NCBI GenBank assembly: GCA_945883815.1
Contig: CAMCYJ010000001.1
Location: forward strand, 23,618 to 87,617
DNA from: Akkermansia muciniphila
Lineage (GTDB): Bacteria; Verrucomicrobiota; Verrucomicrobiia; Limisphaerales; UBA9464
Reading direction: 5' to 3'
Length of the DNA stretch: 64,000 nt
The notes beneath the pieces are model-generated. The model made no database searches. It saw only the letters and a program-made list of their open reading frames with translations, and had not been told where the DNA came from. Position numbers and translations under genes: made by a program. Positions 5,826 through 52,270 of this stretch are shown one piece after another. How positions within the stretch are numbered: position 1 is the stretch's first letter; the number at the start of each line of letters is the position of its first letter.

Positions 5826-6860
5826 TCAGAGTATTTCTGGTAATCCCACGGCATCGACCCGCAGGTCTCGCAGCGTAGAAAGATTCGTCCAGGGAGTTCC
5901 GCGAATGGGCCGGGCTCCATCTTTGCGTTTCGCGCCAAAAAGCGAGCGGTACCGGTGAAAAACCCCGTTCACAAACTCTCGAGACCCCAACGCCACCCCA
6001 TCCGTCAGGTGCCGAACGCGCAGCCGCAAGACTTCGGCCTCACTCAACCGCCCGCCCTGGCTCATCACCCGTCGAATAGCCTCCCGATCCAGTGCTTGCT
6101 TCGAGCTGTGCCCGCTGACACCTCCCTGAGCGAACAGCAGTTCACGGTATTGCGCCGCAGCAGCGATCCAACGGCGCTCTGAGAAGGCACTCATCAGCCC
6201 GTGTTGGATCTCCTTCTGGCCCACCAAAGCGGCCGCATATCCGCAGAATCGGTAATGCTTCGGATCGCTCACCAAGCCAGCGCGGACCGGATTCAGGTCG
6301 ATATAGGCGGCCACAGCCCGCAGAGCCTCCGGAGAATCCTCCACCAGAACACTTTTAAAACGCTCCGCCCACAAAGTGCCGAATCGACCTGTTTGACGGT
6401 TATACCAACGACTGAAGCGCTGCTTGAACTCCTTCATGAACACCGACACATCTCCCATTCGGCCCAGAAGCGTTTCCCGGACATGGACTGGCATTCGCCC
6501 GTGTTCCTTCATCGAATCCCGGGCCAAAACCACCAAAATCCCGTTCCGCCCATAGAAATCTTCGGCTCTGCGGAACACCTCCCCATCGCTCAGAGGCACC
6601 GCCAGCGGCACGCGCACCAGCACATGGAAATGGTTCCCCATCATGCAATACGTAATCACCTCCATCCCGCAAAACCGAGCCAAGCGCATCAACAGCGCAG
6701 CCAGCCTCTCCTTGCATGCCTCATCCAGCAGCAACTGCCCCCCCACCGTCCTGGAAACACAGTGATAAACAGCCCCACCCACCCCTTTGATCCGTGCCAA
6801 CCGCATGCCCAACACCTTACCCATCAAAATACTCATGTCTACAAATATTGAACCTGTCAC
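5826..6860 (-). mobile_element. REP-associated tyrosine (Y1_Tnp, IS200-like) transposase / RAYT
   Basis: RIKGVGGAVYHCVSRTVGG, HUH-type MMGNHFHVLVRVP, FKQRFSRWYNRQTGRFGTLWAERFKSVLVED, AAYIDLNPVRAGLVSDPKHYRFCGYA. Confidence 0.9.
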
Positions 6861-30811: not shown

Positions 30812-31699
30812 TTACTCGATATTCTGGACCTGTTCGCGGAAGCGTTCCAGTTCTGTCTTCATGAGCACCACCTCGGCGGCGATCCGGGCGTCATTGGCCT
30901 TGGAGCCGATGGTATTGATCTCGCGGTGGAACTCCTGAGCCAAAAAATCCAGCTTGCGACCGACGGCTTCCCGACTTTTCCGACAGTCCTCATATTGCTG
31001 GAAGTGACTCTCCAACCGGGCGATTTCTTCTGAAATATCCGAACGATCGGCAAACACCACCACTTCCCGCAGGATGCGTTCGTCATCGACCGTAATTCCT
31101 TCGAGGCCGGCTGATTGCAAACGTTGTGCCAACTGCTGGCGATAGCGGGTCAACACCTCGGGAGCCAATATGCGCACACGATCGAGCGCCGAACGGATGA
31201 GGGCGATGCGACTCTCCAGATCCCGCTCCAGCGCCTCCCCTTCCCGGCGGCGCATGGCATCCATGGATTCGAGGGCCAAAGCGAGTGCCGCGGAGGTTCC
31301 GGGCCAAGCGGCCTCGGGATCCACCACCCGGGTCTCGGATTGCATCACCCCGGGGCATCGCGCCAGCAACTCCAAGCTCACCTGTGCCGCGGCTCCAGAA
31401 AGCCCCAACTCGGCGGCCACCTCAGACCATTCCCGCGAGTAGGCTTGAACCACAGCGCGGTTGATTCGATTCCCCGTGCACTCCCCATCGGGAACATCCA
31501 GCGAGACCCGGATTTCACACCGCCCTCGCGACACCATCCGCGCCACCGACTCACGGATTCGAGTCTCCAGCGATTCCCAATCCGGCGGCAGCATCACCAC
31601 CAATTCGGATTGTTTCCGGTTCACCGACTTCAACTCCACCACCACCTTCGCCTCGGCCGCCGAGGATTCCCCCCGACCATACCCCGTCATCGATTTCAT
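30812..31699 (-). CDS. yicC: YicC/YloC family endoribonuclease
   Basis: MKSMTGYGRGES start, C-terminal RKLDFLAQEFHREINTIGSKANDARIAAEVVLMKTELERFREQVQNIE. Confidence 0.95.
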   Translation of the reverse strand: MKSMTGYGRGESSAAEAKVVVELKSVNRKQSELVVMLPPDWESLETRIRESVARMVSRGRCEIRVSLDVPDGECTGNRINRAVVQAYSREWSEVAAELGLSGAAAQVSLELLARCPGVMQSETRVVDPEAAWPGTSAALALALESMDAMRRREGEALERDLESRIALIRSALDRVRILAPEVLTRYRQQLAQRLQSAGLEGITVDDERILREVVVFADRSDISEEIARLESHFQQYEDCRKSREAVGRKLDFLAQEFHREINTIGSKANDARIAAEVVLMKTELERFREQVQNIE

Positions 31700-31704
31700 T
31701 CCGA

Positions 31705-32196
31705 AGTGTCGGGGACAGGTCCGCCGGTTTGCCAATGGAATTCCCGGATCGGCCCACCGTTCGAAAGCCCCCCATTGGTTAGCCAGAGCGAATGAAGAGC
31801 GGCCGAGGATCGGAACCACCACAGCCTGTCCCTAGACCACCACAGCCTGTCCCTAGACCACCCTAGGAGCAGCCTCTCTGCCCCAGCAGCCGGTTCCCCA
31901 ATGTACCCCCAGTGTGCCCCACCCCGTAGCCTGTCCCCCAAAGTGTCCCAGAAGCCTGTCCCCTGACGCAGATATCACCCACGCACCCCAGCAGCGTCAG
32001 CGGGATCGGGCCGGAGCGAGCATTGAAGGCAAACACCCCAAGCCCCTCGCGCGCAGCGCGAAAACCCATACCCTCCTGCGCCTTCCTGCGAGCGCAGTCC
32101 AGGTCCCGCGTAAGCCAACCCCAGGCCCGTGCCCACGAGTCCGTCCCCACAACACAACACAGCCTGTCCCCAGCAGCCTGTCCCCTGAAGCATCCC
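31705..32196. repeat. GCCTGTCCC array A (intergenic, divergent yicC / esterase)
   Basis: AGCCTGTCCC at 31823, 31844, 31928, 31953, 32161 and 32175, plus degenerate forms (GGGGACAGGTCC near 31711, GTCCGTCCCC near 32139); the first two are in a 21-bp tandem repeat. Confidence 0.85.
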
Positions 32197-32287: not shown

Positions 32288-33358
32288 ATGTCTTTCACCA
32301 GCCGATTACAATTGTGGTCCCCTTCCCGGGTGATGCCGGTACTGATCCTGAGCCTGCTAACGGGTGCCGGTTGCCTCCTTGGAACCCGCTCCGAAAATCC
32401 CGGCTCCAAGGGCGATGGCCACCACGTCGTCGGCCCGAGCTATCCCATCGACCCGGACCTCACTGATCGGGGCAATCCCAAGGGCCGGCAGTTCGAATTC
32501 AAGATGCGACTGGCCAACAGCAAACTCTTCCGCGGTGACGACACCACGCTGGAGCCCACGAAAAAAGCCGTTCGGACCGAGCGGAAAATCTTCGTTTACA
32601 TCCCTGCGGCCTACCGCGATGGCACCCCGGCTCCCGTCCTGGTGACCCACGACGGCCCGAGCCAACTCAAGCTCGTGCGCAACGCTCTCGATAACCTGAC
32701 GATCTCGAAGAACCCCGAGCGAAGCCTGCCTCCCTTCATCGTGGTCGCGATCGAAAACGGCGGAAACGACGGCAAGAACAGCGAGCGCGGCCTCGAATAC
32801 GACACCATGTCCGACCGCTTCGCGCGATTCATCAACGACGAGGTCTTCCCCGCGGTGCTGGCCGACCCGGCCATCCATGCCGCCTATCCCAAGCTAGCCA
32901 TCACCAGCAACCCCTGGGGCCGCGCCACCATGGGATGCAGTTCGGGCGGCGCCGCCGCGATGACCATGGCCTGGTTCCGCCCGGATTTGTTCCGACGTGT
33001 CATCGCCTATTCGGGCACCTTCGTGGATCAGCAAGACGACGACGCCCCAGAAGAGGCCAAATTCCCGCTGGGAGCCTGGGAATACCACTCCAGCCTGAAG
33101 CTCATCGCCAACAGCCCCAAGAAGCCGCTACGCCTCTTCACCCATGTCTCGGAGAACGACAACCGGGCCAAAGACCCCGAAGAGACTTATCACAATTGGG
33201 TCATGGCTGGTGAACGCACCGCCGCCGCCTTGAAGGACAAAGGCTATCACTACCGCTACGTCTTCAGCCGGGCCACAGGCCACTGCGACTCCAAGGTCTT
33301 TGAACTCACCCTGGCCGACACCCTCGTCTGGACCTGGCAGGGCTATCGCCCGGAATAA
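32288..33358 (+). CDS. Alpha/beta-hydrolase esterase (enterochelin-esterase/EsteraseD-like), putative lipoprotein
   Basis: ILSLLTGAGCLLG lipobox-like; RKIFVYIPAAYRDGTPAPVLVTHDG, ATMGCSSGGAAAMTMAWFRPDLFRRVIAYSG, GHCDSKVFE. Confidence 0.88.
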   Translation: MSFTSRLQLWSPSRVMPVLILSLLTGAGCLLGTRSENPGSKGDGHHVVGPSYPIDPDLTDRGNPKGRQFEFKMRLANSKLFRGDDTTLEPTKKAVRTERKIFVYIPAAYRDGTPAPVLVTHDGPSQLKLVRNALDNLTISKNPERSLPPFIVVAIENGGNDGKNSERGLEYDTMSDRFARFINDEVFPAVLADPAIHAAYPKLAITSNPWGRATMGCSSGGAAAMTMAWFRPDLFRRVIAYSGTFVDQQDDDAPEEAKFPLGAWEYHSSLKLIANSPKKPLRLFTHVSENDNRAKDPEETYHNWVMAGERTAAALKDKGYHYRYVFSRATGHCDSKVFELTLADTLVWTWQGYRPE

Positions 33359-46856: not shown

Positions 46857-46954
46857 GGGACAGGCTCCTCGGATGAGGGACAGGCTCCTCGGATGAGGGA
46901 CAGGCTCCTCGGGCAAGGGACAGGTTCCTCGGACTGGGGACAGGCCGGTGACCA
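46857..46954. repeat. GGGACAGGC array B (20-bp tandem units)
   Basis: GGGACAGGCTCCTCGGATGA at 46857 and 46877, GGGACAGGCTCCTCGGGCAA at 46897, GGGACAGGTTCCTCGGACTG at 46917, partial GGGACAGGCCGG at 46937. Confidence 0.9.
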
Positions 46955-52119: not shown

Positions 52120-52270
52120 CGGCTTGCCTGTCCCCAATAGCTCATGTCCCCACTCGCTCAGCCTGTCCCCAGCTTGTTCCCGATCCTGGCTAGCCTGTCC
52201 CTGATACTGACTAGCCTGTCCCCACTAGCTCTGGCTAGCCTGTCCCCACTAGCTGGTTTAGGCTGTCCGC
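52120..52270. repeat. GCCTGTCCC array C (intergenic, divergent genes)
   Basis: GCCTGTCCC at about 52126, 52161, 52193, 52214, 52238 and GGCTGTCC at 52261, interleaved with CTAGC/ACTAGCT spacers. Confidence 0.85.

Follow-up and report, generated by a model that had tools for sequence, protein, structure and literature searches.

In the window, the 64,000-nucleotide stretch of Akkermansia muciniphila DNA analysed here, a gap of 587 bp separates a yicC-like gene (30812-31699, minus strand) from an esterase-like gene (32288-33358, plus strand), both named in the preliminary description. The gap contains six exact copies of AGCCTGTCCC, all on the plus strand (31823-31832, 31844-31853, 31928-31937, 31953-31962, 32161-32170 and 32175-32184), while its dinucleotide composition predicts 0.0009 copies. 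The first two copies, starting at 31823 and 31844, lie 21 bp apart. We could thus confirm the earlier claims of six exact copies in a gap of about 590 bp and of a 21-bp tandem within it. Together with degenerate copies the six make up array A (31705-32196, plus strand). A degenerate copy on the opposite strand, GGGACAGGT (31712-31720, minus strand), is located at the 5' end of yicC, where GGGGACAGGT is retained in the sister species G001, G002 and G003 and degenerate in G005, G010 and G011. Between copies 4 and 5 lies an imperfect palindrome of ~112 bp (31999-32110, plus strand) which belongs to a second repeat family. Members of this family are ~115 bp long, have the ends GCGGGATCGGTCC...GGACCGATCCCGC and were also found at L019 (11093-18136) and L024 (11649-13251). 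At the sister-genome loci L063, L066, L074 and L075, genes of a second RAYT family (Y-V-H-L-N-P) have this repeat directly upstream.

The core of the word recurs in two further distant gaps of the window, as had been described. Array B (46857-46945, minus strand) is a 20-bp tandem of GAGCCTGTCCC-like units with four copies of GCCTGTCCC and one variant. Array C (52126-52246, plus strand) has five GCCTGTCCC copies, four of which are exact AGCCTGTCCC. Across the genome, a Verrucomicrobiota MAG, AGCCTGTCCC occurs 237 times, compared to 19 occurrences of the same word read backwards, which gives over 200 copies in 4 Mb. We then looked at the placement of the copies in 447 kb of own-genome DNA, picked partly for motif presence and with genes from a home-made caller. 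Called intergenic DNA, 15% of this sample, held 52 copies and called coding DNA held 49, the latter count being inflated by over-extended gene starts; 60 shuffled 9-mers averaged 0.9 and 5.7 copies, respectively. AGCCTGTCCC was also the most frequent intergenic 10-mer of the sample. These counts against reversed and shuffled backgrounds (237 vs 19 genome-wide, 52 vs 0.9 intergenic), a check which the preliminary description had proposed, show that the word is found genome-wide, not at this locus alone, and at a density above that expected from composition.

AGCCTGTCCC is not strictly intergenic, since 30 copies lie deep in genes (299 kb of gene cores) where synonymous codon shuffling predicts 1.1. 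About half of these gene-core copies read Gly-Gln-Ala. Several copies encoding Gly-Gln-Ala lie in a large gene with RCC1-like repeats (L009, 13932-18581), and a predicted gene of 1585 aa (L021, 6894-11648) carries the in-frame motif array SKGQATSKGQAPVVFKGQAP. The orthologous stretch of the latter gene in G014 is shorter by one 30-bp unit.

Alignment of 109 copies showed that only A-GCCTGTCCC-[T/C] is conserved, while the flanks are variable; ATGACCTGTCCC is a variant of AGCCTGTCCC. Neighbouring copies no more than 300 bp apart have the same orientation in 47 cases and the opposite one in 5. The spacings cluster at 18, 20, 21 and 24 bp, and the spacer is particular to each tandem array. The word is not palindromic and its consensus contains no 5' GT[AG]G tetranucleotide. 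We observed no excess of hairpin pairing between the flanks of copies (2.81 in real and 2.81 in shuffled flanks), and hairpin models in three geometries, applied to 219 distinct copies, were not consistently above shuffles. A search of Rfam gave no match up to E=1. When the literature was searched for the motif as a string of letters, the matches listed came only from unrelated contexts, mainly human genes and primers.

The genome carries Y1_Tnp genes of more than one clade. The one in the window (5829-6838, minus strand) belongs to a different clade, 43% identical to the cognate transposase described below, and was rejected as the cognate gene as its flanks contain no CTGTCCC. The cognate transposase has 340 aa and matches PF01797 (E=4e-11). 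It shows the motifs NH-hydrophobic-H, WE and Y[IV]DLNP with extra residues after the HUH, and H62, H64 and Y174 are invariant in 13 aligned proteins. A search of solved structures by sequence gave only weak matches (E 0.12-0.63), four of six being IS200-type transposases. In the flanks examined, homologues at least 62% identical to P0001 are preceded by GGGACAGGCT, in most cases by two copies, and/or followed by AGCCTGTCCC, the downstream flank of L112 lying outside this comparison. In full-length relatives from sister genomes the upstream GGGACAGGCT pair is ~21 bp apart, and one to four copies of AGCCTGTCCC follow downstream. The word is present on both sides of the gene in inverted orientation. 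At loci with a single flank, such as L110 and L114, the examined flank carries the word. The four copies of the cognate gene in the own genome (G000; contigs C8, C11, C128 and C98) are all partial and cut by contig ends; on C8 the word stands next to the gene, and on C11 it does so in a degenerate form. The copies at the different loci L030 and L031 agree as far as the outer motif, itself still shared, and diverge beyond it, which sets the end of the transposase element at this motif. Relatives with ~40% identity are flanked by another word (GGACGTGTCCC in L116 and L117) or by none. Taken together, flanks and counts show that the word is the terminal inverted repeat (TIR) of the transposase gene, amplified across the genome.

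The flanks of a transposase clade at 52-57% identity carry ATSACCTGTCCC, and we used this word as a prediction test in 59 genomes. It was read from the flanks in G019, G028 and G034, and G032 and G022 played no part in its choice. We found 98 copies in G019, 45 in G032, 32 in G028, 19 in G034 and 14 in G022, with none of the reversed control in any of the five, and 0-8 copies in each of the other 54 genomes. AGCCTGTCCC was at background in the same five genomes in which ATSACCTGTCCC was abundant, and this comparison shows the word and the transposase clade changing together. The exception was G026, from the same genus as G019, which has many homologues but one copy of ATSACCTGTCCC.

Within the genus of the own genome, all nine genomes with a homologue of at least 65% identity or a 90% fragment have at least 73 copies of the word, and all six genomes with no more than 24 copies are without a close homologue; the chance of such a split is ~0.008 (hypergeometric, with shared ancestry uncorrected). 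No intact close homologue was found in the copy-rich genomes G001, G011, G014 and G017 of the genus or in G024. Assembly loss is the likely but unproven reason, because contig C22 of G014 breaks off within the region upstream of the transposase and the copies in G000 are all cut by contig ends. G024 belongs to another genus; it has 349 copies (L089-L098) with the extended consensus GGAGCCTGTCCC, and a close homologue was not found there.

The yicC-like orthologue adjoins the array site in G001, G002, G003, G005, G010 and G011, and with the esterase-like gene as the orthology anchor we compared gap A between sister species. Its length and copy number are 587 bp with six copies in G000, 561 bp with five in G002, 419 bp with three in G005, 389 bp with two in G010, 190 bp with one in G001, 176 bp with none in G011 and 531 bp with 14 in G003. 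The copies have one orientation throughout. The gap of G001 equals the left and right flanks of the G010 gap joined exactly at the motif, without the intervening palindrome; the difference, taken as unpolarised, consists of one copy together with the whole stretch separating two direct copies (~200 bp). Four genomes (G000, G002, G003 and G005) have array B and three (G010, G014 and G015) lack it, and the five copies of array C in G000 correspond to one at the orthologous site in G014. The comparison shows arrays differing between sister species in steps delimited by the motif.

Most likely, AGCCTGTCCC serves as a transposase recognition site and not as a regulatory element or an RNA element. 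More specifically, we consider it probable that it is the cognate site of a RAYT/TIRYT-type Y1/HUH single-strand transposase, because of its TIR position, its genome-wide amplification, its co-variation with the clade, the motif-delimited steps and a like architecture in Photobacterium. The partial state of the own-genome transposase copies, the five copy-rich genomes in which no intact close homologue was found and the undetected hairpin speak against it. The enzyme would recognise AGCCTGTCCC on single-stranded DNA, cut beside the word and treat two same-strand copies as both ends of a segment. A single copy would remain after excision, and each insertion at an existing copy would add another; arrays could therefore grow at fixed sites with all copies in the same direction and carry other DNA along, for example the palindrome of array A. 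Part of the expansion at short periods (11-31 bp) is probably due to replication slippage.

Direct repeats can also be gained and lost by slippage or by recombination independent of RecA. For the short-period expansion the main rival is a passive one, in which single copies were seeded by the transposase in the distant past and almost all subsequent growth and loss of the arrays came from replication slippage, or from short-homology recombination between direct repeats of 10 bp. The short periods of 18, 20, 21 and 24 bp, the locally unit-specific spacers and the 30-bp unit by which G000 and G014 differ would all be explained by this. However, slippage alone accounts neither for the spread to hundreds of sites nor for arrays at sites which are empty in sister species, and the ~200-bp difference between G010 and G001 is long for a 10-bp repeat. 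We regard this passive reading as rather unlikely.

The other readings fare worse. The preliminary description named a REP-like element as one possibility, and this holds as far as the word is a dispersed, mostly extragenic repeat linked with a Y1 transposase gene of the RAYT type. A canonical REP (REPtron), though, needs a hairpin palindrome and a 5' GTAG or GTGG, and a REPIN needs inverted pairs, while here neighbours are direct (47 vs 5), pairing equals that of shuffles and no helix geometry stands consistently above them. Both were rejected, and a GTAG-tagged hairpin element is highly improbable. An array bound by a regulator or by a nucleoid protein, also suggested earlier, would agree with direct copies clustered near the starts of genes. 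The turnover is at odds with a fixed regulatory role, because copy numbers at gap A and in arrays B and C vary between species, with 0 to 14 copies in the same promoter gap and the orthologous sites of array B empty in three sister genomes. Copies also lie inside genes and the word variant tracks the transposase clade, so we consider such an array very unlikely. As for a structured RNA element, the word is repeated and intergenic, but neither an Rfam family nor base-pair covariation was found and spacers and copy number are unconserved, which leaves this idea scarcely credible.

Among known systems, the closest kind is TIRYT/TIRtron, where a Y1 gene is flanked by GGGGWSAS TIRs; these may also make up repeat families, as single units or in groups, which are described as only moderately abundant (PMC3733652). 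Here too, a Y1 tyrosine transposase with HUH and catalytic Tyr has inverted repeats on both sides, and the TIR is dispersed as a repeat family (237 copies). GGGGACAG, the start of the word on the other strand (GGGGACAGGCT), fits GGGGWSAS. It arises when the word is followed by C, in about one third of copies; otherwise the form is mostly AGGGACAG, one base off GGGGWSAS. The present family differs in its abundance of more than 200 copies in 4 Mb, its 10-11 bp core, its direct-repeat arrays and its clade-specific word variants tracked across genomes. TIRYT were placed mostly in TnpAY1 subclass 2.1 (PMC6006769). We considered this subclass, but by length and motifs the cognate enzyme looks closer to subclass 2.3, which has a median of 325 aa and in which no REP-like sequence was found (PMC6006769). 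The long protein, NH-hydrophobic-H, WE, Y[IV]DLNP and the extra residues after HUH would agree with subclass 2.3, whereas the cognate enzyme is without the ~10-residue N-terminal insertion of its gammaproteobacterial relatives and has a clear, non-hairpin cognate repeat.

With IS200/IS605 the enzyme shares the Y1/HUH chemistry. There both ends are recognised on one strand, which would fit the same-strand direct copies. Unlike in IS200/IS605, subterminal hairpins were not detected and no tnpB was seen. The TnpA_REP enzymes studied so far need a hairpin. REP/RAYT and REPIN systems likewise pair a dispersed repeat with a co-varying Y1 transposase (PMC2817692, PMC3116915, PMC8266576), whereas here the palindrome and the GTAG guide are lacking and pairs are direct instead of inverted.

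RAYT-type Y1 transposases are common and many are without a known substrate. Sequence comparison gives a putative cognate word for one clade, a variant for a second one and states with and without copies at orthologous loci. This makes the hairpin need of such enzymes and their role in repeat turnover testable. Tentatively, we propose as a possibility that a widespread Y1 branch, from Verrucomicrobiota to Gammaproteobacteria and reported without a cognate repeat, may use a short non-hairpin word whose same-strand copies serve as ends and landing site, and that intergenic pads would thereby grow, shrink and capture DNA.

Distant homologues in Gammaproteobacteria (~29-33% identical) are accompanied by a similar word arrayed in direct orientation, which reads TGTGYCTGTCC for Photobacterium sp. 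GJ3 and GGTGTGTGTCC for Vibrio tritonius. A combined pattern was found 57 times in the Photobacterium record (2 in the control), which includes a tandem array with a period of 21 bp at 926974-927152, 7 times in the Vibrio record (0 in the control) and 15 times in an Aeromonas record (12 in the control), the last with no clear enrichment. The exact word was not seen in the Pseudoalteromonas and Shewanella relatives. The array-bearing, sequenced Photobacterium strain is a possible experimental host. Repeats of GGGGACAG and GGGGTCAG were also observed at a Pseudomonas plasmid gene and a Rhodospirillum gene.
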